Source: Pseudoxanthomonas sp. (GTDB lineage: Bacteria > Pseudomonadota > Gammaproteobacteria > Xanthomonadales > Xanthomonadaceae). Taken from it: a stretch of 64,000 nucleotides of DNA. Position numbers and translations under genes: made by a program. The stretch lies in assembly GCF_002863005.1 (NCBI RefSeq), contig NZ_PKDG01000015.1:372001-436000 (forward strand), given 5' to 3'. The notes under the pieces were generated by a model that saw only the letters and a program-made list of their open reading frames with translations, made no database searches and was not told the DNA's origin. This document shows, one piece after another, positions 11,162-28,733 of this stretch. The stretch's first letter is position 1; each line of letters begins with the position of its first letter.

Positions 11162-14100
11162 ATGATCGTCCTCGAAGGCCAACCGGCCTTGTCGCACTTC
11201 CGCCGCGCGCGGCTCGAATCCAGGCTCCAGTCGATTGTTTCCGACGTCCGCATCTGCGGCGCCTGGCACGTCTATTTCATCGAACCCGAGGCAGGCGCCA
11301 CGCCGGACCTGGCCACGCTGCGCCGCATCCTGCAGGCCGGTGACGGCAGCGAGGCGCTGGCGGCGGGCGCGGTCTCGCGCTTCGTCACCCCGCGCCTCGG
11401 CACGCTGTCGCCGTGGGCCAGCAAGGCCACCGAGCTGCTGCGCGGTGCCGGACAGCCGGTCAAGCGCGTCGAACGCGGCCTGCGCATCGACCTGGAAGGC
11501 TGGAACGACAGCCGGCCGGCACTGGCGAAGGCGCTGCACGACCCGATGACGCAATCGCTGCTGGCGAGCCGCGAGCAGGCGCAGGCGCTGTTCACCGCGC
11601 CGGCGCGCGGCGAACTGGAGCGCATCCCGCTGGCACAGCTGGAAGCCGCCAACGCGCGCCTCGGCCTGGCGCTGGCCGAGGACGAGATCGATTACCTGCG
11701 CACCCGTTACACCGAGCTGGGTCGTGATCCCTCCGACGTCGAACTGATGATGTTCGCGCAGGCCAACTCCGAGCACTGCCGGCACAAGATCTTCAATGCC
11801 ACCTGGACCATCGACGGCAAGGACCAGGACCGCTCGCTGTTCCGGATGATCAAGCACACCCATGCGCAGACGCCCGAGCACACGCTCAGCGCCTACAGCG
11901 ACAATGCGGCGGTGGTCGAGGGTTATCCGGCGGCCCGTTTCCGCCCCGACGGCAGCGGCCAGTACCGCCTCGAGGCGACGCTGGACTCGGCGTTCTGCAT
12001 CAAGGTCGAGACACACAACCATCCGACCGCGATCGCCCCGTTCCCCGGCGCCAGCACCGGGGCCGGCGGCGAGATCCGCGACGAGGGCGCCACCGGCCGC
12101 GGCGGCAAGCCGAAGGCCGGCCTGACCGGCTTCTCGGTCTCGCACCTGCGCATCCCGACACTGCCGCAGCCGTGGGAGATGCCTCGCGCGCTGAATCCGC
12201 GCATGGCGCCGGCGCTGGAGATCATGCTCGACGGCCCGCTGGGAGGCGCCGCGTTCAACAACGAATTCGGCCGGCCGAACCTGCTGGGCTATTTCCGCAG
12301 TTTCGAGCTGCCGGAAGGCGAGGCACTGACCCGCGCCTACGACAAGCCGATCATGCTGGCCGGCGGCCTGGGCGCGATCGACCGCATCCAGGTGGAGAAG
12401 AAGACGCTCTCGGCCGGCGATGCCGTCATCGTGCTCGGCGGCCCGGCGATGCTGATCGGCCTCGGTGGCGGTGCGGCGAGTTCGGTGGCTTCCGGCGAAA
12501 GCGCCGAAGCGCTCGATTTCGCCAGCGTGCAGCGCGACAACCCCGAGATGGAGCGCCGCTGCCAGGAAGTCATCGACCGCTGCGTGGCGATGGGCGAGGA
12601 CAACCCGATCCTGTGGTTCCACGACGTGGGCGCGGGCGGCCTGTCGAATGCGATTCCTGAACTGCTGCACGACTCCGGCGTGGGCGGGGTGATCGACCTG
12701 GGCAAGGTACCCAGCGACGATCCGTCGCTGTCGCCGATGCAGCTGTGGTGCAACGAATCGCAGGAGCGTTACGTGCTGGGCGTGCCGCAGGCGCGCCTGG
12801 CCGAATTCGCCGCACTGTGCGAGCGCGAGCGTTGCCCCTTCGCAGCCGTCGGCGTGGCGACGAAGGAAGAACGCCTGGTAGTCGCGTACGGCGCAACGCC
12901 CGGCAGTATTCCTGCCGATGCGCCTATCGACCTGCCGATGGACGTGCTGTTCGGCAAGCCCCCGAAGATGCACCGCGACACCGCGCATCCGGCGCCGCCC
13001 AAGTGGCCCGCGCTGCAGACCGGGGCGCTGGACCTGCATGAAGCCGGCCTGCGCGTGCTCGCGCATCCGACGGTGGCCTCCAAGCAGTTCCTGATCACCA
13101 TCGGCGACCGCAGCGTCGGCGGCCTGACCGCACGCGACCAGCTGGTCGGCCCGTGGCAGATGCCGGTGGCCGACTGCGCGATCACGCTGAGCGGCTACGA
13201 CGGTTTTGTCGGCGAAGCGATGGCGATCGGCGAGCGTACGCCGCTGGCGCTGCTCGATGCCGCCGCCGCCGCCCGCATGGCAGTGGGCGAAGCGATCACC
13301 AACCTGTGCGCCGCGCCGGTGGAATCGCTGCACCGCGTGAAGCTGTCCGCGAACTGGATGGCGGCTGCCGGGCATCCGGGCGAAGACGCGCTGCTGTTCG
13401 ACGCGGTGAAGGCCGTCGGCATGGAGCTGTGCCCCGACTTGGACATCAGCATTCCGGTCGGCAAGGACTCGCTGTCGATGCAGGCGCAGTGGCATCGCGA
13501 CGGCCAGGCGCAGAAGTCGGTGTCCCCGGTGTCGCTGATCATCAGCGCCTTTGCGCCGGTCACCGACGTGCGCCAGCACCTGACGCCGCTGCTGTCGCGC
13601 GAAGACGACAGCGAGTTGTGGCTGATCGGGCTGGGCGCGGGCAAGAAGCGTCTCGGCGGTTCCGTGCTCGCGCAGGTCTACCCGCAGTCGGGCGGCGAGG
13701 GCGCCTGGCCGGCGTTCGCCGGCGACGGCCACGACGAAAGCGTGCCGGACCTCGACGATCCGCAGCGCCTGCGCGATTTCTTCCACCTGATCGCCGACGC
13801 ACGCGAGGCCGGCCTGCTGCTGGCGTACCACGACCGCAGCGACGGCGGCGCGTTCGCGGCGTTGTGCGAGATGGCGTTCGCCTCGCACCGCGGCCTGGAC
13901 ATCAACCTCGACGGCTGGGGCGACGATGCGTTCCGCACGCTGTTCGCCGAAGAACTCGGTGCGGTGGTGCAGGTGGCCGACGAAGACCGCGCGGCGTTCG
14001 CCGATCTGGTCGAGCGCCACGCGCTGACCGAGTGCGCGCAGCGCATCGCACGCCCGACCACGGCGTCCACGATCCGCGTGCAGCAGGACGGCGACGTGCT

Positions 14101-15058
14101 GGCCGAGTGGCGCTGGGAAGACCTGTTCGATGCCTGGTGGTCGGTCACCCACGCCATGCAGAAGCTGCGCGACAACCCCGAGGCCGCCGACCAGGAGCGC
14201 GATGCCGCGCGCCAGTTCGGGCGCACAGGCCTGAAGCCGAAACTGTCCTTCGACGCCGCCGAGGATGTCGCGGCGCCCTTCGTCGCCACGGGCAAGCGCC
14301 CGAAGGTGGCGATCCTGCGCGAGCAGGGCGTCAATGGCCAGATCGAGATGGCATCGGCCTTCGCCCGCGCCGGCTTCGATGCGTTCGACGTGCACATGAG
14401 CGACCTGATCGCGGGCCGCGTGTCGCTGACGGACTTCAGCGGTCTGGCGGCCTGCGGCGGCTTCAGTTACGGCGACGTGCTGGGTGCGGGCCGCGGCTGG
14501 GCGACCTCGATCCTCGAGCGCGGTGCGCTGCGCGATGCCTTCGCGGCGTTCTTCGCGCGACAGGACGCGTTCTCGCTGGGCGTCTGCAACGGCTGCCAGA
14601 TGATGAGCCAGCTGAAGGACATCATTCCCGGTGCGCAGCACTGGCCGCAGTTCCTGCGTAACCAGAGCGAGCAGTTCGAAGCGCGCGTGGCGTTGCTGGA
14701 AGTGCAGGAATCGCCGTCGGTGTTCTTCCGCGGCATGGCCGGCTCACGCATCCCGGTGGCAGTGGCCCATGGCGAAGGACGTGCCGAGTTCGCCGGCCCG
14801 GTCGACCAGGCCGCGGCGCGCGTGGCGCTGCGCTACGTGGACGGCGATGGTGCGATCGCGACCACGTATCCGCTCAATCCCAACGGCTCTCCGGACGGCA
14901 TCACCGGCCTGACCAGCGACGACGGCCGGGCGACCATCCTGATGCCGCATCCCGAGCGCACACCGCGCAGCGCGAACCACAGCTGGCATCCGGTGGGCTG
15001 GCCGGACGATTCGCCGTGGCTGCGCATGTTCCGCAATGCGCGGGTGTGGGTGGGCTGA
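11162..15058 (+). CDS. purL: Phosphoribosylformylglycinamidine synthase
   Basis: A 1298-residue large-type PurL (FGAR amidotransferase) of the fourth step of purine synthesis, converting FGAR, ATP and glutamine to FGAM. The order is as in the E. coli enzyme: N-terminal PurS-like domain, linker, the two AIRS-like synthetase halves ([13 protein letters not shown] near residue 203; [14 protein letters not shown] near 364), and a C-terminal class I glutamine amidotransferase with nucleophile Cys1142 in GVCNGCQMM and the His/Glu pair in [10 protein letters not shown]. No frameshift or deletion is visible. The ATG at 11162 gives the family N terminus. Confidence 0.97.
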
Positions 15059-15088: not shown

Positions 15089-15661
15089 TTACCGGCGATC
15101 CCGGACCGGGCGATACTGGTCATCCTCTCCAAACGTGTCGCCTGTCGGGTCGATGTTGGCGCACAGCCTGCCATCGCACTGAGTCACGTCGGCAGCGTCA
15201 TAGGCTTTCAGCAACTGCGCCGATAGCTGGTAGTGGCGGATCTCGTCGTAATAGTGGCGGGAAAGCCAGCTGCCGCCCAGAACGATCAGAGTGAGGCTGG
15301 CGAGACAGACGCCGACGACCTTCCACAGTAGATGCCGATAGAGCGCGCGGGCGGCGTGGATCTGCGCAGCCAGTGCCTGCGAGGCCTGCCGTAGATCCTG
15401 TCCGGACGTCTCCAGGCGTGCCTGGTAGGTCGAGACGGATTGTCCGATGCCTGCATCGACGGCGCTCGCGATACTGCCCCGCAAATGCTGCATTTCCGTG
15501 TCGGCAGCCCGGCGGACCGTGTTAGGCAATTGTTGCGAGAGCTCCTGGAGTTGCCGGTGCGCAGCCTGCAGGCTGCCCTCGATCTGCTGCGTACGGCGCT
15601 CGAACCGCTCCATGAGGGCTGACACGCTGGCGACGAGGTCGGTGATTCGGTCAGTGTCCAT
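15089..15661 (-). CDS. Coiled-coil, single-TM protein, possibly relaxation-protein-like
   Basis: A 190-residue protein. Residues 1-105 are Gln/Arg/Ala-rich and helical, probably coiled coil; residues about 113-132 (VVGVCLASLTLIVLGGSWL) form one membrane helix; the rest is a short tail with CDGRLCANID and a terminal YRPVRDRR. The tail recalls small MobB-like relaxation proteins of plasmids, which also combine a coiled coil, one TM helix and a C-x-G-x-x-C motif; that similarity is from memory and not firm. It is the last gene of a four-gene minus-strand cassette, 25 bases after the lipase-like gene, and could help with delivery or immunity. The ATG at 15661 is the first Met of the compact protein. 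Confidence 0.6.
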   Translation of the reverse strand: MDTDRITDLVASVSALMERFERRTQQIEGSLQAAHRQLQELSQQLPNTVRRAADTEMQHLRGSIASAVDAGIGQSVSTYQARLETSGQDLRQASQALAAQIHAARALYRHLLWKVVGVCLASLTLIVLGGSWLSRHYYDEIRHYQLSAQLLKAYDAADVTQCDGRLCANIDPTGDTFGEDDQYRPVRDRR

Positions 15662-15686
15662 CCTGCTTTCCTTGGCAATGTTGGTG

Positions 15687-17078
15687 TCAGATCGAGCGTG
15701 CGATGCCGGCTGACACCGCGACCTGCCGCTGCTCCACACGTTGTTGTTCGGTGACCTGTTCCAGCAGCGCCTGCTGTCGTTCTTCGGCATCCACCTGAGC
15801 CACCGCAGTCGCACTCACCCGCCTCGCATAAGAATCGTTGGCTGCGGCCTGAGTCATCAGGCGGAAGTCGACCTGGTCGCCGGCGTCGTAGGCGGTCACC
15901 ATGCGGTTGATGTAGGCGAGGGGGTCATCGCGTAGCGAGACCGGCGACGATGCGGAATCGCCGGCGGGCCGCGAGGGCCAGCCACTTCCACGCTCCGGCT
16001 TGCACTGGCTGTCTTCCAGCGTGGGAGCCCGACGAAGCTCCTGTATCCGCCCGTCGATCTGTTCCAGGGGGCTGCCGGCACTGTCCCGATAGATCAGCGG
16101 TCGATCGGGCGGCACGAAGTCGCGATTTCTCTCTTCCGTCGCGCGTTGCGCCCCAAGGCGAAGCTCCCGCAACTCGTCGTGAACTTCGTTGCCCATCAGG
16201 CCGTGCCTGACTTTGTGCATCACGTACTGGGAGCCGATCGCGGACGTATAGGCGATGCCCGCGCCGGTGAGCTTCATCGCCAGCGGCACATCCTCCGCAG
16301 CCGAGCGGATGCTCTCCCGGTAGGCGTCGAACTCGGGCTTGTGTTGCTGGTAGAGCGCTTGGTTTTCGTGATTTATAAGTGAGTTCGGGCCGTAGACTGC
16401 CAGTTGTTCGGCGGTGCGGTGGCCGCCATGGAACTGCACTGCACCGTGGGTCGCGTCCGGGCCGAGTGTGCGCAGGTCGCCGATGAGTTCCCATCGGGTC
16501 TGCTGACTGGGTGCCGCACCCTGCTTGAGCAGTACGTCGACGTCCTGCTGCGTGGCATAGACGCGGACCTCGCCGAAGTGTCTGTTCGCCGCGCCTACCA
16601 TGTCGGTGGCACGTACGTGGTTGATGACTTGGTTTCCGCCCTCGGGCACGCCATAGAGTCCGGCTGCGCCATAAGCGTTGAATGTCTCGCCCTTGAGTCC
16701 GTACTCGTGGCACGTGACTTGGGTATGGAATCCTCCCAAGGAGTGTCCGGCGACGGTGACGCGGGTGCCGTCCCTTTTGGCCATCTCGATGGCAAGCTCC
16801 ACCAGGTCTCGGGCGTCGTCCAGTTGCTGGTTCACCTTCAGCAGAGCCATCTGGGCATCGGTGAGCAGCCCGTCGCGGATCTTGTCGGTGTCGAACTCGG
16901 TGCCGGTGTGGGACACGACGTAATCTCTTGTCTTGACATTTCGATAGATCGCTCCGTGGTAGCCGGATGAGGTTCGAACCTCTTTGACCAGTTCAAAAGC
17001 ATCGATATCGATCCGACTATCGTGGGGCGAGTAAGATCTTTCAGACAGCCTTGCATGTGATTCCGTTAGCGTTGACAT
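15687..17078 (-). CDS. Lipase-like alpha/beta hydrolase, candidate secreted effector
   Basis: A 463-residue protein with a class 3 lipase-like core: RDYVVSHTGTEFD (the oxyanion-side strand), a long helix, then the nucleophile elbow GHSLGG with Ser113. The Asp and His of the triad cannot be placed with certainty. There is no N-terminal signal peptide. The last about 85 residues are charged and end in a Gln/Glu-rich helix (AEERQQALLEQVTEQQRVEQ). A Gln-rich C-terminal tail is a feature of XVIPCD domains that target Xanthomonadales type IV effectors (X-Tfe), but the other XVIPCD motifs are not evident. The upstream lipoprotein gene ends one base before this ATG, as in effector-immunity pairs. Antibacterial phospholipase is the leading hypothesis; an ordinary intracellular lipase remains possible. 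Confidence 0.7.
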   Translation of the reverse strand: MSTLTESHARLSERSYSPHDSRIDIDAFELVKEVRTSSGYHGAIYRNVKTRDYVVSHTGTEFDTDKIRDGLLTDAQMALLKVNQQLDDARDLVELAIEMAKRDGTRVTVAGHSLGGFHTQVTCHEYGLKGETFNAYGAAGLYGVPEGGNQVINHVRATDMVGAANRHFGEVRVYATQQDVDVLLKQGAAPSQQTRWELIGDLRTLGPDATHGAVQFHGGHRTAEQLAVYGPNSLINHENQALYQQHKPEFDAYRESIRSAAEDVPLAMKLTGAGIAYTSAIGSQYVMHKVRHGLMGNEVHDELRELRLGAQRATEERNRDFVPPDRPLIYRDSAGSPLEQIDGRIQELRRAPTLEDSQCKPERGSGWPSRPAGDSASSPVSLRDDPLAYINRMVTAYDAGDQVDFRLMTQAAANDSYARRVSATAVAQVDAEERQQALLEQVTEQQRVEQRQVAVSAGIARSI

Positions 17079-17079
17079 G

Positions 17080-17679
17080 TCAGTTCTTCCTTGAAGATAT
17101 CTTCATCTTGTATGAGATGGGGTCCAGTTCCTGAATACGTCCATCGTCGAATGGGGTGAAGCAAGTGGAGTCGTATTTGTCGCGCATCAATGTTCTGCAA
17201 TAGCCCACAGTCACCTCTTTTCCATTGAGTTCAGCGAGGCTCAGTCGCGTAGTCTGGCGAAGAGTGCTGCCGCGTTCGACAATGGCATCTGCATAAGCAA
17301 ACTCCCACTTGCATAACCCCAGACCGTAGTAGTCCTCGTCGATGGGCCAGTCGAGGAAGATGTGACCCCTGTAGGTGTTGTTTCCAGTCGGGACGAGAGA
17401 GAACCCCCTCTCGTAGCGGGAGCCGGGGGTATATCCGGCGATACGGTCCGGCGTAGGCATGCAGATGACATCAGGAATACTGAAATACGCCATTCCGGAG
17501 ATGTTCTCGATGTCGACCGGCGGATCGACCAGTTCCACCGTGATTTCGTAGCGTTGAGTCGGATTTGAGTTGGTTTTTACGGTGGGTGGTTTGAACTCGC
17601 TTGCGCCCCAGCATCCCGCGATCAGAAGGGTTGCGACGATCAGGCAGTAACACGGGAATCGGCGATTCACGGATTGCAT
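17080..17679 (-). CDS. Lipoprotein, candidate immunity protein
   Basis: A 199-residue protein with a lipoprotein signal (CLIVATLLIAGC, lipobox IAGC) and no domain I recognise. The mature part is beta-rich in appearance and has several Cys (CMPTP, LCKWEF, GYCRTL, TCFTP) that could form disulfides in the periplasm. Its stop is one base from the start of the lipase-like gene, so the two are translationally linked. Periplasmic lipoproteins are common immunity partners of envelope-targeting type IV and type VI effectors; the immunity role here is inferred from position, signal and pairing only. Base composition is visibly lower in GC than the flanking housekeeping genes. Confidence 0.65.
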   Translation of the reverse strand: MQSVNRRFPCYCLIVATLLIAGCWGASEFKPPTVKTNSNPTQRYEITVELVDPPVDIENISGMAYFSIPDVICMPTPDRIAGYTPGSRYERGFSLVPTGNNTYRGHIFLDWPIDEDYYGLGLCKWEFAYADAIVERGSTLRQTTRLSLAELNGKEVTVGYCRTLMRDKYDSTCFTPFDDGRIQELDPISYKMKISSRKN

Positions 17680-17800
17680 CCTCGGAAACTGTTCGAGCCG
17701 CCGTTGCTGGCAGCGGAGTCACAACCTTGCACAGGCGCCAAGTTGCCAGGTGGCCGGTCCGTGAGCCTTACATCACGTGCAGGCAGAAAGAACTGCAAGT

Positions 17801-18373
17801 TCAATCCTGGTGTGCCGGGCTTACGTTCGGGCAATCTCTGCCAGGAATGCGTGAGTCGCATATACGCACTTCCGCGAGATGCCGGAGCGCCAGGTGGGTA
17901 TCGCGTTCCGAAGGTACGTGCCGGAACGCGAACTGGACGGAATAGAAGGCATCATTGCCTTCGATGGTCTTCGACCAGAAGTGTTCCGGCGTGCCGGTTG
18001 CAGGATTCAACGGGCAGACGTGCTGCCATAACGCGTACGTGTAGCCATCCTCCTCCCCCGCATCGATCTTGACAGCGTTCGCGCCGGGGCAGGCGCCGGA
18101 AAGGTTGGCTGCAAGCCGTTGCTGGAATCCGTCCGCCGGCATCCGTGCGCCGTGGAAGACCTGTGTGGTGACCATGCGTGTCCAGCGTTCGACGGATTCA
18201 TCCGATGGCACCATTTCGCTCATGCTCATCTGGCCTTGTCGCGTCTGGTAACCGATCTTGTAGCCGTGCGGCAACGCCTGAAGCAGGTTCTCTCCCTGCA
18301 TTGCGCTGTCTGCGATCGCCGTTGCAGTGGGAAAAAGAGCGGAAACAAGAAGTGCGAAGTGGAAATGCGTCAT
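17801..18373 (-). CDS. Secreted protein of unknown function
   Basis: A 190-residue protein with a signal peptide (MTHFHFALLVSALFPTATAIA, cleavage near ADS). The start at 18373 is supported by a strong Shine-Dalgarno AAGGAGG five to six bases upstream; codons further upstream would destroy that spacing. I recognise no domain. Cysteines in SGACPGAN, QHVCPLN, VRICDSR and GRDCPN suggest disulfides. It is the first gene of the minus-strand cassette, with 121 bases before the lipoprotein gene, so it may be in the same transcript; it could be a second immunity or accessory protein. Confidence 0.65.
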   Translation of the reverse strand: MTHFHFALLVSALFPTATAIADSAMQGENLLQALPHGYKIGYQTRQGQMSMSEMVPSDESVERWTRMVTTQVFHGARMPADGFQQRLAANLSGACPGANAVKIDAGEEDGYTYALWQHVCPLNPATGTPEHFWSKTIEGNDAFYSVQFAFRHVPSERDTHLALRHLAEVRICDSRIPGRDCPNVSPAHQD

Positions 18374-18757
18374 AAGGCCTCCTTGGCCAGCGGATAGCAT
18401 GTCAGGGGATGGGGGTCGCCACTTCTTTTGAGTGAGTAAGCGCTCCTGGCGGCCGCGCAGTGCCGCTTGCTGCGTGCGATGTTTCATGCGACTGCTTGGC
18501 GTTTGTATCAGATGCATATCAGTACATGCCATTAACATTCTCGCGGAATGCCCCACGATTGCGTGTGCAGCGTCCATCCATGCACGGGGCGTTTTGGGTC
18601 CGGGGTTGCGGCGTGACGGCATCCTCGCAAGTGACAGCCTGCGCAACAGTCCTCTCCAGGGAGCGAGGGGCTGCCTCGAAAAGCTCCCCTCGCGCCACGC
18701 GTTGCGACAATCCCCCCGTCCGGACCTGATAAAGTCCGGGCCTCAAGGAGGCCTTCC
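18374..18757. promoter_or_regulatory. 384-base intergenic region upstream of xpsE and of the effector-like cassette
   Basis: Both flanking genes read outward, so two promoters should be here. The middle (about 18480-18560) is AT-richer than the surroundings. The xpsE side has a leader-like hairpin with arms GCGAGGGG (18663-18670) and CCCCTCGC (18686-18693), a second stem CCGGAC/GTCCGG (18720-18725, 18734-18739), and a strong Shine-Dalgarno AAGGAGG (18745-18751). No confident -35/-10 pair was found. Confidence 0.4.
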
Positions 18758-20470
18758 GTGGACGCAGCCGCGATCGACAATCCACTTTCCGATGACGAGC
18801 GCATCGTGGCAGCGCTGCTGGCCCGCGGGCGGCTGAAAGAAGCCGACCTGGCGCGTGCGCGCCGCCTGCAGGACGAGGCGGGCGGCGGTCTGCTGGCCTT
18901 GCTGTCGCGGCTGGGACTGGTCTCCGAGCGCGACCATGCGGAAACCGCGGCGGAGGTGCTCGGGCTGCCGCTGGTCAACGCCAAGGATGCGCCGGATGTG
19001 CCGCCGGAATCGGTGGTGATGTCGTTGCGCTTCCTGAAGCAGTTCCACCTGTGCCCGGTGGGTGAGGACGAGAACCACATCGATCTGTTGATGGCCGATC
19101 CGCAGGACCACTACGCGCTCGAGGCCGTGCGGCTGGCGACCGGCCGCATCGTGCGCCCGCAGGTGGCGCTGCGGTCGGAGATCAGCGACCTGATCGAGCG
19201 TTACTACGGGCAGGGACGCAGCGCGATGGGCGCCATCGTCGAGAATGCGGATGGCGAGGCCACCGCAGACCTCGATGATGTCGAGCATCTGCGCGACCTT
19301 GCTTCCGAGGCGCCGGTCATCCGCCTGGTCAACCTGGTGATCCAGCGCGCCGTCGAATTGCGCGCGTCGGACATCCACATCGAACCGTTCGAGAACCGGT
19401 TGAAGGTGCGCTACCGCATCGATGGCGTGCTGGAGGAGGGCGAAAGCCCGCCGGCCAACCTCACCGCGGCGGTGATCAGCCGCGTGAAGATCATGGCCAA
19501 GCTCAACATCGCCGAGCGCCGGCTGCCGCAGGACGGCCGCATCATGCTGCGCGTGCAGGGCAAGGAACTCGACCTGCGCGTATCCACCGTGCCCACGGCG
19601 CACGGCGAAAGCGTGGTGATGCGCCTGCTCGACCGCGAAACGGTGGTGTTCGACTTCAAGAAGCTGGGCTTCACCGATGCCTTCCTGCCGCAGTTCCAGA
19701 AAGTGCTGGAGCAGCCACACGGGATCCTGCTGGTCACCGGCCCCACCGGTTCGGGCAAGACCACCACGCTGTACACCGCGCTGAGCAAGCTCAATACGCC
19801 GGACGTCAAGATCATCACGGTGGAAGATCCCGTCGAGTACCAGATCGAGGGCATCAACCAGATCCAGGCCAAGCCGCAGATCGGGCTGGACTTCGCCCAC
19901 GCGCTGCGCAGCATCGTCCGGCAGGATCCGGACATCATCATGATCGGCGAAATGCGCGACCTCGAGACCGCGCGCATCGCCATCCAGTCCGCGCTGACCG
20001 GCCACCTGGTGCTGTCCACGCTGCACACCAACAATGCGGCCGGCGGCATCACCCGCATGCTGGACATGGGCGTTGAGGACTACCTGATGACGTCCACCAT
20101 CAATGGCATCCTCGCCCAGCGGCTCGTGCGCCGGCTCGAGCCGACGCATGCGGAGAGGTACGCGGCGTCGCCCGAGGAAATCGAAAAGTTCCACCTGCGC
20201 CGCTTCCAGCCCGAAGGCGACATCTTCCTGTACCGCCCGCGTGGCTCCGCCGTCGCGCCGACCGGGTACCTCGGCCGCACGACCATCGTCGAATTCCTGG
20301 TGATGAACGACGACGTCCGTCGCGCCATCATGCGGCACGCGGGCATGGGCGAGATCGAGCAGCTGGCACGCGAGGCCGGCATGCGGACCATGTACGAGGA
20401 CGGCATCGTCAAGGCGCTGTCCGGCGAAACGACCATCGAGGAAGTCCTGCGCGTGACGGAAGAGGGGTGA
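18758..20470 (+). CDS. gspE: Type II secretion ATPase GspE/XpsE
   Basis: A 570-residue secretion ATPase. The N-terminal N1/N2 domains (about residues 1-170) bind the inner-membrane protein GspL; the RecA-like domain has the Walker A GPTGSGKTT at residues 328-336, the Asp box before it, and the Walker B and His-box segments IIMIGEMRD and STLHTNNAAGG. It powers pseudopilus assembly at the inner membrane. Where most GspE proteins carry a four-cysteine zinc motif near the C terminus, this one has none (residues about 445-510 contain no Cys), a feature reported for xanthomonad XpsE. The GTG at 18758 has AAGGAGG six bases upstream. Its partners gspF-D begin 10.8 kb downstream. Confidence 0.95.
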   Translation: MDAAAIDNPLSDDERIVAALLARGRLKEADLARARRLQDEAGGGLLALLSRLGLVSERDHAETAAEVLGLPLVNAKDAPDVPPESVVMSLRFLKQFHLCPVGEDENHIDLLMADPQDHYALEAVRLATGRIVRPQVALRSEISDLIERYYGQGRSAMGAIVENADGEATADLDDVEHLRDLASEAPVIRLVNLVIQRAVELRASDIHIEPFENRLKVRYRIDGVLEEGESPPANLTAAVISRVKIMAKLNIAERRLPQDGRIMLRVQGKELDLRVSTVPTAHGESVVMRLLDRETVVFDFKKLGFTDAFLPQFQKVLEQPHGILLVTGPTGSGKTTTLYTALSKLNTPDVKIITVEDPVEYQIEGINQIQAKPQIGLDFAHALRSIVRQDPDIIMIGEMRDLETARIAIQSALTGHLVLSTLHTNNAAGGITRMLDMGVEDYLMTSTINGILAQRLVRRLEPTHAERYAASPEEIEKFHLRRFQPEGDIFLYRPRGSAVAPTGYLGRTTIVEFLVMNDDVRRAIMRHAGMGEIEQLAREAGMRTMYEDGIVKALSGETTIEEVLRVTEEG

Positions 20471-22940: not shown

Positions 22941-25900
22941 TTACAGGTCGATACCGAAACCGACGCCGGCCGACTTTTCGTCACCGCTGAACGCACCGCC
23001 GATGCTGAACGATGCGCGCTCGCCGAGCGGCTTCGAGTAGCCCACCGACAGCGCGTTCTCGCCGTTCTGCCAGCCTGCGCCCACGGCGACCCGTCCACGC
23101 GGACTGCGACTGCCCGCCGCGTTGATCGCCATGTTCAGCATCGCCGAGCTCATCGCGCCCATCCGGTCGAGACGACGGTCCTGTTCGGAGAAGCGACGGT
23201 CCACGTCGCCGCGGAAGGCATTGAAGTCGTCCTCCAGCGCCTTGACTTGGAAGTCGGCATACGCCTTCGCGCTCGCCAGCGTGCTTGCCGAGGACTGATC
23301 GGTGTAGGACTGCGCGCTGCTGAGCGTGTTGGCGTCGCCGGCGTCGGCATACGACGCGGCGGCGGCCGGCACGTCCGCCGTGGCGCTGGCGTCGCTTGGG
23401 GCCGCAACCGCCGGCTGGCCACTGGCGACAGCGCCGCTGCCGCCAGCCTCCGTCGTCGTCGCCGTGCCGCGTGTCGGCGACGATGCATTACCACCGGTGC
23501 CGTGCGCGGAGGCCGATTCGCCGGTGGAATGCGCTTGGCTGGCCTGTGCTGGCGGTGTCGCGGCGGTCGATGCGGTGGAGGTGCCGCTGCTCAACCCGTT
23601 GTACATCCCGTAAAGCTCGTTGAGCTTGGCATCGACGGCGGTGAACGCCGCGCCCACATTGTTGTACGACATGCCCTGGATCGTGTAGCTCGGCGCGATG
23701 AACACGCCACCGGAGAAGCCGGCGCCGCCGCCCAGCGAACTGGCGACGAGACTCAGCTGCGACAGGTTGACCGCGTCGGTGGCCTGGGTGCCGGCCGCGA
23801 CATTGGTGATCTGCCGCTCGCTGCCTGCGCTGCCGACCGACACCGTGTCCTCGCGATCAGCGACCGAATCGCCACCGATCGCCACGCTGTTGTCGGCCTC
23901 GGCCGTGGCCAGGTTGCCCAGCGCCACCGAGTTGACGCCGGGCGTGTACGCGCCACCGCCGACGGCGACCGAGTAATCGCCGGAAGCTTCGGTCGCCAGA
24001 GCACCGAAGAACGCGCCGCCGACGGCGACGCTGTTGTCGCCGCTGGCAAGCGCGCGTGAGCCCAATGCCGTGCTGTCGTAGTTGTTCGCGGTCGCACCGA
24101 AGCCCAGTGCCGTCGCGCTCTCTCCGCTGGCATCGGCACCGTAGCCGAACGCCGAGGCGGCGAACTCGGAGGCACTGCTGTATCCGCCCACGGCCGTCGC
24201 GGCATCGCCCGCGGCATCGCTGCGGAAACCGGTTGCCGTGGCTTGCAGGCCGGACGCCGCGCTTTCCGTACCGTTGGCCGTGGCGTACGCACCGGAGGCG
24301 GTGGCTCCCGCACCCGTCGCCGTCGCACCGCTTTCACTGGCGACGGCGCCTGCACCGACGGCCGTCGCGTCGTCTGCTGTGGCTTCCGTGCTGGCGTAGA
24401 CCGGATTGCCGTCCTCGTCGAGGACCTGGTCGCCGTTGTCGTCGAGCAGCGGACGCTGGCCACCGAGCGCGACTGCGCCGGCGCCTGTCGCCTGCGCTCC
24501 CGCGCCGTTGGCAACGCTGTTCTCGCCGGTCGCGGTCGCATTGAACCCGCTGGCCGTGGCGCCGTCCGCGAGGGCGAAGGCGCCGGAGCCCGTAGCAGTT
24601 GCCCCGACGCCGTCCGCCAGTGCGGCGGAGCCCGACGCCGTCGCGTAATCGCCGGTCGCGGTGGCGTCATCGCTGCCGTCGTTCGCACCGTTCGCCTTGA
24701 AGTAGCGCGTGGCGTTTTCCGACGCGTCGGCCAGCGCGTTCAACTGGTCGAGGTTCACCGCATCCGTGCCTTCCGTACCCGCGGCCACGTTGGTGATCTG
24801 GCGTTCGGCCCCCACGTCGCCCACCGAGACGGTGTCGTCGCGGTCGTTCCAGGAGTTGGCGCCGATCGCGACGCTGTTCGTCGCCCCCGCCACGGCGTTC
24901 ACGCCCACGGCCACGCTCTCTTCGCCATCCGCGTAGCTGTTGTGGCCGAGCGCAGTGCTGTACTCGCCCGTGGCCCAGGCTCCGTTGCCGAAGGCCGAGC
25001 TGCCGGTCCCGCTGGCACGGGTGTTGATGAGGCCGAAGAAGGTGGTGCCGCCCACGGCGGTGCTTTCATCGCCGCCAGCGGCGGCCCCTTCGCCGACCGC
25101 CGTCGCGCCGCTGCCGCCTGCATCGGCACCGTAGCCGAATGCCGAAGCGAAATCGCCGCCGGCACTGCTGTAACCGCCGACGGTCGTGGATGCCAGGCCG
25201 CCCGCGCTGCTGCGGAAGCCGACCGCCGTCGCCTGCGTTTCGGATGCCGAGGCTTCCGTGCCCAGCGCCGTCGCGTACGCACCGGACGCATTCGCACCCG
25301 CACCGGTGGCGGTCGCGCCGACTTCGCCCGCGACCGCACCTGCGCCGATCGCCGTGGCATCGTCCGCCGTGGCCGCGGTGCTGGCATAGACCGGGTTGCC
25401 GTCTTCATCCAGCACCGGGTCGCCGTTTTCGTCGAGCAGCTGGCGCTGTCCACCCAGTGCGACCGCACCTGCGCCCGTGGCTTGTGCGCCCGCACCGTTG
25501 GCGACGCTGTTGTTGCCGGTGGCGGTGGCATTGAAGCCGGTCGCCGTGGCGCCGTCGGCGATCGCGAATGCGCCGGAACCGGTCGCCGTCGCGCCGACGC
25601 CGTCGGCCAGCGCAGCCGAACCGGAGGCGGTCGCATACTCTCCGTTGGCGGTGGCGTCGTCGGTGCCGTCGTTCGCACCGTTCGCCTTGAAGTAGCGCGT
25701 GGCGTTTTCCGAAGCTTCGGCGACTGCATTCAACTGATCGACGTTCACCGCGTCGGTACCTTCGGTACCGGCGGCGACGTTGGTGATCTGCCGCTCGCTG
25801 CCTACATCGCCTACCGAGACGGTGTTGTCGCGGTCCGCCGTCGAGTTCGCACCGAGCGCCACGCTGTTGTCGCCCAGCGCCGTGCTGTAGAAGCCGACGG

Positions 25901-28733
25901 CCGTGCTGTTGTCGCCGCTGGCCCAGGATTCCGCGCCCAGTGCCGTGGCGTAGTCGCCCGGCGCGTAGGAGAAGAAGCCGGCCGCCGTGCTTTCCAGGCC
26001 CGACGCCTCCGACAGACTGCCGGCCGCCAGGCTGTAGTCGCCTGCGGCGATCGCGCCCGACCCGAAGGCGGCCGCGCTGAATCCGCTCGCCTGCGTGTAG
26101 ACCAGGAGACCGAAGCCGGGAATCAGGTCCGCCGGCCCACCCACCGCCACGCTGTAGTCGCCGCTGGCGCCGCTGGCGTGGCCGAAGCTCGACGCATACG
26201 ACCCGGTGGCCGTACTGCCATAACCGAAGGCGGAACTCGCTTCACCGCTGGCTTCGCTGAGCACACCGAACGACGAACTGCCGAGCGCCGAGGCGAGACT
26301 GCCGGAACCGACCGCCGTCGCGCCCAGCCCGGAAGCGACCGTATTGACGCTGATCGGATTGCCCTCGGTATCGAAGGCATCGACCGTGCCACCGATGGCG
26401 ATGCTGGAATCGCCGCTGGCTTCGGCGCTGCTGCCGTTGGCCACGCTGTTGCTGCCGGTGGCGGTCGCTGAGAAGCCGGTCGCGGTGGCACCGTCGGCCA
26501 GGGCGAACGCGCCCGAGCCGGTGGCCGTGGCGCCAACGCCTTCGGCCAGTGCGGCCGACCCGGACGCCGTGGCGTAATCGCCGGTGGCCGTCGCGTCGTC
26601 CGAGCCGTCGTCGGCACCGTTGGCCTTGAAGTAGCGCGTCGCGTTCTCCGAGGCTTCCGCCACGGCGTTCAACTGATCGACGTTCACCGCATCGGTGCCT
26701 TCGGTGCCGGCGGCGACGTTGGTGATCTGGCGTTCGCCGCCGGCACTGCCGACGGAGACGGTGTCTTCGCGATCGGCGACCGAGTCGCCGCCGATGGCGA
26801 CGCTGTTGTCGGCCTCGGCCGTGGCCAGGTTGCCCAGCGCCACCGAGTTGAAGCCCGGCGTGTACGCGCCGCCGCCGACGGCCACCGAATAGTCGCCCGA
26901 AGCTTCGGTGGCGAACAGACCGAAGAAGGCACCACCGACGGCCACGCTGTTGTCGCCACTGGCGATCGAGTTCGAACCCAGCGCGGTGCTGTCGAAGTTG
27001 CTCGCGACCGCACCGAAGCCCAGCGCCGTCGCGCTGTTGCCGCTCGCCTCGGCGCCGTATCCGAAGGCCGATGCGCCGAAGTTGGATGCGTTGCTGTAAC
27101 CGCCGATGGCCGTCGCGGCATCGTCGGAGGCATCACTGCGGAAGCCGACGGCGGTGGCCTGGATGCCCGACGCAGCGGCTTCGGTGCCGATGGCGGAGGC
27201 ATAGGCGCCCGACGCATTCGCACCCGCACCGGTGGCGGTCGCCCCGACCTCGCCCGCGGCCGCACCTGCGCCGATGGCCGTGGCATCGTCCGCCGTGGCC
27301 TCGGTGCTGGTATAGACCGGGTTGCCGTCTTCATCCAGCACCGGGTCGCCGTTTTCGTCGAGCAGCTGGCGCTGTCCACCCAGTGCGACGGCACCTGCGC
27401 CCGTGGCCTGTGCGCCCGCACCGTTGGCGACGCTGTTGTTGCCGGTGGCGGTGGCATTGAAGCCGGTCGCCGTGGCGCCGTCGGCGATCGCGAACGCGCC
27501 GGAACCGGTCGCCGTCGCGCCGACGCCGTCGGCCAGCGCAGCCGAACCGGAGGCGGTCGCATAGTCTCCATTGGCGGTGGCGTCGTCGGTGCCGTCGTTC
27601 GCACCGTTCGCCTTGAAGTAGCGCGTGGCGTTTTCCGAAGCTTCGACGACTGCATTCAACTGATCGACGTTCACTGCATCGGTGCCTTCGGTACCGGCGG
27701 CGACGTTGGTGATCTGCCGCTCGCTGCCGGCGCTGCCGACGGAGACGGTGTCTTCGCGGTCGGCCACGGAGTCGCCACCGAGCGCAACGCTGTTGTCGGC
27801 ATTCGCCGACGCGAGATTGCCGATGGCGGTCGCATTCGTGCCCGGCGCCCACGCGCCGCCGCCGACCGCGGTCGAGAAGTCGCCCGATGCTTCGGTCGGC
27901 AGGAAGCCGAGCAGAGATCCACCGACTGCGACGCTGTTGTAACCGGTCGCAAGGGAGCCGGAACCCAGCGCGGTGCTGTCGCCGCCGCTGGCATCGGCAC
28001 CGTAGCCGACCGCCGTGTCGAAATCGCCCGACGCATTGGCGAAGCCGCCGACTGCGACGGTCGCAATGCCGGTCGCCGTGCTGGTGTGGCCCGCGGCCAG
28101 CGCCTGCGTGCCCGAAGCGGTGGACGCGCTGCCGAATGCACCGGCATACGCACCGGTCGCCGTGCTGCCGGTGCCCACCGCGCTGGCGCCCGCGCCCGTC
28201 GCGTTCGCCTGCGTACCGACGGCAGTCGCGTTGGCGCCGGTGGCGTTGCTCTGGCTGCCCAGCGCCGTCGCGCCCTGCGCGGTCGCACTGCTGTCGTAGC
28301 CCACCGCCGTGGCATTCACCCCCTTTGCTTCCGCATAACCGCCAACGGCGGTGGCGCCCGCTTTGTTGGCGATGCTCTTGTAGCCGACAGCGACCGCATG
28401 GCGACCGGACGCGTCGACATCATCGCCGCACGAGACGGCGTTCTCGCCGGGGCGGCCGTCCTTGATCGGATTGCCGCGTGCATCCACGCAGTAGGCGGGG
28501 CCCGTTCCGATCTGCGGCTTGTCGTTCTGCGGTTGGCCCTTGTTCTTGTCGTGGGCCAATGCCGCACCGAACGGTGCACTTGCGAGCAGCGCCGACACCA
28601 GCAGCGTCACGCCGAGGCGCGCACGCACGCGCGCACCGGACGACATCACGCCATGCGCGCGGCGCGCGAACTCGGAGGCGACGACCAGCATGCCCAGGGA
28701 GGGGTTCCACACCTTGCTGTAAATCCTATTCAT
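22941..28733 (-). CDS. Trimeric autotransporter adhesin (YadA/Hia-like)
   Basis: A 1930-residue type Vc adhesin. Residues 1-26 (MNRIYSKVWNPSLGMLVVAS...) are an extended signal peptide region, and the signal core ends near LAHDKN (about residue 62). The passenger is almost all YadA-head repeats of 14-16 residues with the xATAxG/xSVAxG pattern, interrupted by five neck motifs (D-R-E/D-D/N-TVSVG...ERQITNVAAGT). Three copies of an acidic insert, DENGDPVLDEDGNPVY or a close variant, occur in the heads. A short coiled coil (AYADFQVKALEDDFNAFRGD) leads to the C-terminal YadA anchor ending in FGIDL. It should trimerise, insert in the outer membrane and bind surfaces or cells. A Shine-Dalgarno-like AAGGA precedes the ATG. 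Xanthomonad homologues are called XadA. Confidence 0.93.
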   Translation of the reverse strand: MNRIYSKVWNPSLGMLVVASEFARRAHGVMSSGARVRARLGVTLLVSALLASAPFGAALAHDKNKGQPQNDKPQIGTGPAYCVDARGNPIKDGRPGENAVSCGDDVDASGRHAVAVGYKSIANKAGATAVGGYAEAKGVNATAVGYDSSATAQGATALGSQSNATGANATAVGTQANATGAGASAVGTGSTATGAYAGAFGSASTASGTQALAAGHTSTATGIATVAVGGFANASGDFDTAVGYGADASGGDSTALGSGSLATGYNSVAVGGSLLGFLPTEASGDFSTAVGGGAWAPGTNATAIGNLASANADNSVALGGDSVADREDTVSVGSAGSERQITNVAAGTEGTDAVNVDQLNAVVEASENATRYFKANGANDGTDDATANGDYATASGSAALADGVGATATGSGAFAIADGATATGFNATATGNNSVANGAGAQATGAGAVALGGQRQLLDENGDPVLDEDGNPVYTSTEATADDATAIGAGAAAGEVGATATGAGANASGAYASAIGTEAAASGIQATAVGFRSDASDDAATAIGGYSNASNFGASAFGYGAEASGNSATALGFGAVASNFDSTALGSNSIASGDNSVAVGGAFFGLFATEASGDYSVAVGGGAYTPGFNSVALGNLATAEADNSVAIGGDSVADREDTVSVGSAGGERQITNVAAGTEGTDAVNVDQLNAVAEASENATRYFKANGADDGSDDATATGDYATASGSAALAEGVGATATGSGAFALADGATATGFSATATGSNSVANGSSAEASGDSSIAIGGTVDAFDTEGNPISVNTVASGLGATAVGSGSLASALGSSSFGVLSEASGEASSAFGYGSTATGSYASSFGHASGASGDYSVAVGGPADLIPGFGLLVYTQASGFSAAAFGSGAIAAGDYSLAAGSLSEASGLESTAAGFFSYAPGDYATALGAESWASGDNSTAVGFYSTALGDNSVALGANSTADRDNTVSVGDVGSERQITNVAAGTEGTDAVNVDQLNAVAEASENATRYFKANGANDGTDDATANGEYATASGSAALADGVGATATGSGAFAIADGATATGFNATATGNNSVANGAGAQATGAGAVALGGQRQLLDENGDPVLDEDGNPVYASTAATADDATAIGAGAVAGEVGATATGAGANASGAYATALGTEASASETQATAVGFRSSAGGLASTTVGGYSSAGGDFASAFGYGADAGGSGATAVGEGAAAGGDESTAVGGTTFFGLINTRASGTGSSAFGNGAWATGEYSTALGHNSYADGEESVAVGVNAVAGATNSVAIGANSWNDRDDTVSVGDVGAERQITNVAAGTEGTDAVNLDQLNALADASENATRYFKANGANDGSDDATATGDYATASGSAALADGVGATATGSGAFALADGATASGFNATATGENSVANGAGAQATGAGAVALGGQRPLLDDNGDQVLDEDGNPVYASTEATADDATAVGAGAVASESGATATGAGATASGAYATANGTESAASGLQATATGFRSDAAGDAATAVGGYSSASEFAASAFGYGADASGESATALGFGATANNYDSTALGSRALASGDNSVAVGGAFFGALATEASGDYSVAVGGGAYTPGVNSVALGNLATAEADNSVAIGGDSVADREDTVSVGSAGSERQITNVAAGTQATDAVNLSQLSLVASSLGGGAGFSGGVFIAPSYTIQGMSYNNVGAAFTAVDAKLNELYGMYNGLSSGTSTASTAATPPAQASQAHSTGESASAHGTGGNASSPTRGTATTTEAGGSGAVASGQPAVAAPSDASATADVPAAAASYADAGDANTLSSAQSYTDQSSASTLASAKAYADFQVKALEDDFNAFRGDVDRRFSEQDRRLDRMGAMSSAMLNMAINAAGSRSPRGRVAVGAGWQNGENALSVGYSKPLGERASFSIGGAFSGDEKSAGVGFGIDL
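23740..27750 (-). repeat. Long internal tandem repeats in the adhesin gene
   Basis: The adhesin gene repeats a roughly 1-kb module (neck, KANG linker, head repeats, acidic insert). Neck-coding segments lie near 23760-23860, 24720-24840, 25700-25830, 26640-26770 and 27620-27750. The copies around 25390-25740 and 27317-27665 are nearly identical at exactly 1926 bases (642 codons) apart, so recombination between them would delete an in-frame block. Confidence 0.85.

Follow-up and report, generated by a model that had tools for sequence, protein, structure and literature searches.

How does a lipase-type effector leave the cell when it lacks the domain by which the effectors of such secretion systems are recognized? 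The question is raised by a cassette of four genes lying between a gene that we take to be purL and xpsE in a 64,000-nt stretch of Pseudoxanthomonas sp. DNA (contig NZ_PKDG01000015.1, positions 372,001 to 436,000; this whole stretch is termed the window). The arsenals of X-type type IV secretion systems (X-T4SSs) are identified by XVIPCD, and in the available part of a 2024 paper all of their effectors (X-Tfes) are said to carry it (PMC10933484). The cassette lipase ends instead in a different short domain and a Gln-rich tail, and its gene is followed by that for a protein with a coiled coil and a transmembrane helix, here named CCTM. An earlier interpretation made from the letters alone (the sequence-only reading) had noticed this fourth protein, and one coiled coil and one helix are indeed found, but it missed that CCTM is the most informative part of the cassette. 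We consider it likely that the cassette is an X-T4SS effector/immunity module, in which CCTM would act as an adaptor that docks short-domain effectors to VirD4. Its principal features are:

15089..15661, minus strand: CCTM gene, 190 aa, coiled coil and one hydrophobic helix
15687..17078, minus strand: lipase-type effector gene, 463 aa, with GHSLGG and no signal peptide (by eye)
15690..15914, minus strand: C-terminal 75 residues of the lipase, short domain and Gln-rich tail, the proposed secretion or docking signal
16731..16748, minus strand: nucleophile elbow G-H-S-L-G-G, lipase residues 111-116, from the alignment of 27 sequences
17080..17679, minus strand: lipoprotein gene, 199 aa, proposed immunity protein, with a lipobox-like LIAGC by eye

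The association of CCTM with the short domain and with virD4 is strong. The genus contains 53 CCTM matches, in 17 of 38 genomes, and 39 of these genes are preceded, on the same strand and at no more than 450 bp, by a short-domain match. Thirteen of the remaining 14 stand beside virD4 in a T4SS cluster, one in each genome of the short type (defined below); at the last (genome G012) the order is short domain, XVIPCD, CCTM. The short-domain profile was built from 35 of the CCTM-upstream tails of the genus, so the other checks weigh more than the count of 39/53. Outside the genus, 40 CCTM loci were picked by hand among the matches listed, to cover genera. The short domain is found upstream at 32 of them (31 at E<=1e-3), and the controls at E<=0.1 gave no match downstream and one antisense. 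The short-domain frame ends no more than 111 nt from the CCTM match in 30 of the 32; at locus L173 it runs into the CCTM start, and at L176 the distance is 1015 nt and another gene intervenes. The layout of L176 recurs on a mobilizable plasmid of Xanthomonas fragariae (NZ_CP071956.1, L268:871-4267), which encodes an effector-like protein with the short domain, an intervening product and CCTM; the annotation calls all three hypothetical. Two X. fragariae records are matched by the window's CCTM among plasmids, and none among phages. Six of the other eight loci outside the genus precede virD4.

The effectors that carry the short domain have unrelated toxin domains, comprising lipase, M23 with SLT (M23 below cut-off), lysozyme with RTX, GH19 and, in two effectors, Tle1-like catalytic domains; for three of ten one domain scan gave no family. 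Since relatives of CCTM either follow short-tailed effectors with many toxins or precede virD4, a role as a secretion partner is suggested.

The lipases of the genus provide a control in which the toxin is held constant. From 47 matches, nine frames below 400 aa and one second segment of a counted gene were dropped; all 104 XVIPCD and 53 CCTM matches were used, with the subset of short-domain matches near lipases. Ten of the 37 lipases end in XVIPCD, and none of the ten has CCTM next door. Twenty-two end in the short domain, with nine adjoining CCTM, 11 in the virD4-CCTM cluster and two elsewhere, while five are unclassified, again with no CCTM adjacent. Conversely, CCTM lies downstream of four of the 104 XVIPCD matches, and all four proteins also carry the short domain before XVIPCD.

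The divergence of CCTM goes with the tail and not with the toxin. Distances were compared at 60 of 93 loci, in 12 toxin clusters; the 33 excluded were those adjacent to virD4, the four XVIPCD loci, L122, L168, L176, L194 and loci with no upstream frame of at least 250 aa. L168 and L176 do carry the short domain upstream, as seen in the later profile search, and, because of a glycine run, the tails of L174 and L177 were placed 50 residues further in. For pairs with different toxins the tail and CCTM distances correlate with r=0.751 (1498 pairs; 0/2000 permutations), and r is 0.762 within Pseudoxanthomonas, 0.734 between genera and 0.680 within single genomes (32 pairs). The variance in CCTM distance is accounted for by toxin cluster with R2 = 0.15, by the tail with 0.64, and by both with 0.641. 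Shared ancestry of linked genes contributes to the correlation.

CCTM comprises a coiled coil of ~110 aa, one membrane helix (best window residues 111-129) and a C-terminal part of ~60 aa. A C-x4-C motif follows the helix in all 51 aligned members (invariant as C162-x4-C167 in the cassette protein), and at the chosen threshold a single hydrophobic segment is seen in 45 of the 51. The mean net charge is +2.0 before the helix and +0.7 after it, which fits a coiled coil predicted to be cytoplasmic. AlphaFold models CCTM, with low confidence, as long helices with a small pair of strands in the C-terminal part. Among the 51 members no Pfam family matches more than four. The NCBIfam model NF052375 (‘anti-sigma factor’) matches 20 of them, at best with 9.4e-07, but its cut-off is 100 bits and the three members that were checked reach 21-22. 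No Pfam or NCBIfam model, of an adaptor, a T4SS family or otherwise, lies above its cut-off in the members checked. XAC2622 was considered as the CCTM counterpart in X. citri and rejected, as it is identified as VirB7 in the part of the source available (PMC3093366).

The sequence-only reading had suggested that the genome be searched for a VirB/VirD4 system, and one is present. Contig C1 of the window's own genome holds virD4 and a virB cluster, in which Pfam identifies VirD4, VirB3, VirB4, VirB5 (T4SS), VirB6 (TrbL), VirB8, VirB9 (CagX), VirB10 (TrbI) and VirB11 (T2SSE). VirB2 is assigned by position only, and VirB1 was not identified in the cluster. A VirB7-like protein of 152 aa gives only a sub-cut-off match; its length falls inside the 130-185 aa described for VirB7 of X-type systems in the accessible text of PMC6536674. 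This is an X-type VirB/VirD4 system, and a CCTM gene lies immediately upstream of virD4.

VirB4 is found in 26 of the 38 genus genomes and divides them into two groups of 13. In the first (short-type) VirB4 is at 94-100% to our own copy, and all of these genomes have virD4-CCTM and 0-1 matches to PF20410, the XVIPCD family. In the second (XVIPCD-type) it is at 75-82%, with 4-13 PF20410 matches, and of these genomes only G003 and G029 have CCTM matches. The VirD4 of the window's genome is 75-83% identical to six CCTM-following VirD4s of two other genera, and 53-69% identical to five XVIPCD-type VirD4s of its own genus (one of them partial; five of the 13 genomes were sampled). A search of the genus with the profile adds 55 short-domain matches (E<=0.01): 23 are in T4SS clusters, 25 at other places in the 13 short-type genomes, five in genomes without VirB4 (one being the G012 locus) and two in XVIPCD-type genomes. 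Across the family, CCTM matches occur in 124 of 395 genomes and 17 of 54 genera (best eight candidates per genome). VirB4, counted whatever its type, is matched at E<=1e-100 in 110 of the 124 and in 69 genomes without CCTM; these presence counts ignore relatedness, and absences are soft since the family searches scored the best few candidates per genome.

These observations can be assembled into a model. The cassette would be a horizontally exchanged module of lipase effector, lipoprotein immunity protein and membrane partner, in which the short C-terminal domain and Gln-rich tail stand in for XVIPCD as the export signal. CCTM would be anchored in the inner membrane, its coiled coil facing the cytoplasm, and would capture the short domain and present the effector to VirD4. 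The copy encoded in the virD4 operon may provide docking in general to those short-domain effectors that lack their own CCTM. We infer the action of the lipase on prey membranes, the immunity, the physical binding and the export by the T4SS. More broadly, we think it rather probable that this is a second substrate-recruitment route for bacteria-killing T4SSs, based upon a docking domain and a co-diverging adaptor, which has largely replaced XVIPCD in one X-T4SS lineage, apparently common to several genera, with the adaptor built into the virD4 operon. If so, arsenals will have been missed, for example in the 28 of 124 family CCTM genomes with no XVIPCD match, of which 26 have VirB4. Substrate selection by T4SSs would also become testable, with two unrelated signals for related machines and a candidate adaptor for one of them.

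Several observations weigh against this model. Two of the 40 outside loci (L169 and L194) fit neither setting, and 18 of 20 sampled short-domain effectors with no listed CCTM have none downstream (the other two have one that the search had missed), so effectors of this type can evidently do without a CCTM next door. At four loci of the genus (L014, L104, L118 and L125) the two signals are paired, each with an effector bearing the short domain and then XVIPCD, and the CCTM gene next. Among XVIPCD-type genomes, G003 has six CCTM genes and G029 has one, with a stop. In the family, XVIPCD is also present in 96 of the 124 CCTM genomes, making replacement the exception there; 14 of the 124 have no VirB4 match, among them G023 (listed as one contig, 100% complete), which has short-domain effectors and CCTM; some of the others are fragmented. 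The differences between the VirD4s are too scattered to point clearly to a docking site, the AlphaFold model of CCTM is poor (pLDDT 61.5, pTM 0.29), and the co-divergence may in part reflect transfer of the module without binding.

One of these points favours a different arrangement, with direct contact between the short domain and VirD4; CCTM would regulate the T4SS or be a structural accessory to it, and would not be an adaptor. The effectors without their own CCTM would then be expected, and the tails are Gln-rich, as in XVIPCD effectors. However, neither co-divergence of tail and CCTM across toxins nor the repeated effector-linked copies would be expected of a general regulator, and we regard this arrangement as unlikely. 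The position of CCTM in toxin operons, 25 nt past the lipase in the cassette, together with its membrane helix, could alternatively mark a second immunity protein, a membrane guard blocking the neighbouring toxin. Yet the genes follow lipase, GH19, lysozyme/RTX, Tle1-like and (below cut-off) M23 proteins alike, CCTM divergence tracks the tail and not the toxin, CCTM occurs in the virD4 operon and is absent beside the same lipase family when XVIPCD-tailed (0/10), and its largest part is predicted to be cytoplasmic; a guard function is thus improbable. A co-encoded membrane protein paired with a tail might also travel with the effector or help it in the prey as a translocation partner, rather than act in the donor. 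This is very improbable given a virD4-operon copy with no adjacent effector in 13 of 13 short-type genomes. It is equally doubtful that the lipase exits by another route or is a housekeeping enzyme in an ordinary low-GC island. The same lipase family is XVIPCD-tailed in 10 of 37 cases, the lipoprotein is homologous to one beside a second lipase that follows virD4, and the T6SS marker VipB, the one T6SS family searched, is lacking. The adaptor model remains our preferred reading.

Regarding the toxin itself, GHSLGG is unvarying across 27 aligned lipase homologues. Pfam gives weak hydrolase matches below cut-off, and NCBIfam an SA1320 match far below cut-off. A profile of the 27 homologues matches the structure of a type VI secretion system (T6SS) lipase effector, 7ubz_B, weakly (E 0.0013). 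Better structure matches (9p3h, 7r6s and 7mu9) fall towards the C-terminal part, presumably through XVIPCD-bearing members of the profile. The proposal that XVIPCD might lie in the last part of the lipase was not upheld. There is no PF20410 match at E<=1, with the qualification that HMMER filters drop most matches above 0.1, and comparison of the short-tail profile with an eight-sequence XVIPCD profile reveals no likeness (probability 0.1%). XVIPCD is thus rejected as the export signal of the lipase. The one PF20410 match of the genome lies elsewhere than the cassette.

The cassette lipoprotein is homologous to a lipoprotein beside the second lipase of the genome (BLASTP 3e-16). The tail of that lipase looks XVIPCD-like by eye but gives no PF20410 match, and its gene lies downstream of an orphan virD4. 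Homology, with the X-type system in the genome, supports the effector/immunity pattern proposed from the sequence alone, and lipase and lipoprotein look like an antibacterial effector/immunity pair. The order at the second locus (L010:7729-11883, contig C21; also L133 and L246) is orphan virD4, lipoprotein, lipase, and no virB gene was recognized alongside by eye. The trio recurs in G032, and G027 has virD4 near a lipase. The orphan virD4 may encode a coupling protein that serves a single effector.

Delivery by a T6SS, the other route that had been suggested, is rejected on one marker. VipB (PF05943), the sole T6SS family searched, has no match in the genome, and E. coli gives a match among 14 control genomes. 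The same genome, without VipB, encodes on contig C8 (L263:976-2307) a Tle1-like (PF09994) protein with a short tail and no CCTM downstream, perhaps a T6SS-type toxin domain served by the T4SS.

IcmSW of Legionella are soluble general adaptors of the type IVB secretion system. CCTM would be like them as an adaptor that brings a subset of effectors to a T4SS coupling ATPase (the DotL complex, in the accessible part of PMC3441705). It differs in having a membrane helix and in often being effector-linked. The cassette is closest in outline to the effector/immunity (X-Tfe/X-Tfi) pairs of Xanthomonas citri and Stenotrophomonas maltophilia, as far as the available text describes them (PMC6536674, PMC6759196, PMC11253643), sharing a toxin N-domain, a Gln-rich C-terminus, an adjacent lipoprotein immunity protein and an X-type VirB/VirD4 in the genome; it departs from them in that another short C-terminal domain takes the place of XVIPCD and a membrane partner is encoded alongside. 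Atypical type IV effectors such as Le1637 of Lysobacter enzymogenes are homologues of T4SS effectors without XVIPCD, and Le1637 is a phospholipase with an adjacent neutralizing protein (PMC10989847), comparable to the proposed pair of the cassette. Its neighbours are Le1636 (hypothetical) and a gamma-glutamyltranspeptidase, and, unlike for the cassette, the part of that account available gives no membrane partner or alternative signal. T6SS lipase effectors (7ubz; Tle1-like PF09994) are linked to the cassette lipase by the weak profile match noted above, but this genome has no VipB. No description of a co-encoded adaptor or second signal in X-T4SSs was found in the accessible text of the open-access literature, including PMC3953393 and PMC10432156.

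The remaining features of the site are:

11162..15058, plus strand: left flank of the insertion site, named purL from its sequence, as we assume (ORF list, locus comparison)
17801..18373, minus strand: secreted-protein gene, 190 aa, accessory, with a signal-like N-terminus by eye
18758..20470, plus strand: xpsE (T2SSE, MshEN, from Pfam), right flank of the insertion site

The open reading frames (ORFs) place four genes on the same strand between two core genes, as described before, and the single base between the lipoprotein stop and the lipase start is base 17079. From the lipase stop to the CCTM ATG there are 25 nt, and AAGGA precedes the ATG. The atypical composition is likewise borne out by a scan in 500-bp windows, where the GC content is 0.68-0.73 in purL, 0.52-0.65 in the cassette and 0.65-0.69 in xpsE. 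The dip is strong at 16750-18500, with its minimum at 16750-17999, and the left part of the cassette is just slightly under xpsE.

With the first 150 residues of xpsE as query the site was found in 37 of the 38 genus genomes, and 30 loci were compared; named relatives are Pseudoxanthomonas japonensis, P. sp. 3HH-4 and P. mexicana. The cassette occupies the site in six of the 30 (G000, the window's genome, and G007, G009, G016, G021 and G028), and many relatives lack it. In 10 loci purL lies 76-121 bp from xpsE, indicating an insertion; the spacing is 155-209 bp in four, 741-922 bp of other DNA is present in two, and in eight no purL end lies inside the 1.5 kb compared beside xpsE. The secreted-protein gene, which had been counted as a flanking part of the cassette, is present here and in G028, and in no other of the six. 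Across the five other cassettes identity is 81-88% for the lipase, 82-88% for CCTM and 54-91% for the lipoprotein. Of the three, the lipoprotein has in most cases diverged furthest, as would be expected for a putative immunity gene, but in G028 it has diverged least. The lipase orthologue of G021 (L082) is interrupted by an internal stop, and in G016 (L079/L215) the cassette is accompanied by an additional lipoprotein-type gene and a truncated N-terminal copy of the lipase. Elsewhere in the window, at 22941-28733 on the minus strand, an ORF of 1930 aa has many adhesin-head-like repeats by eye, and we take it to resemble a trimeric autotransporter.

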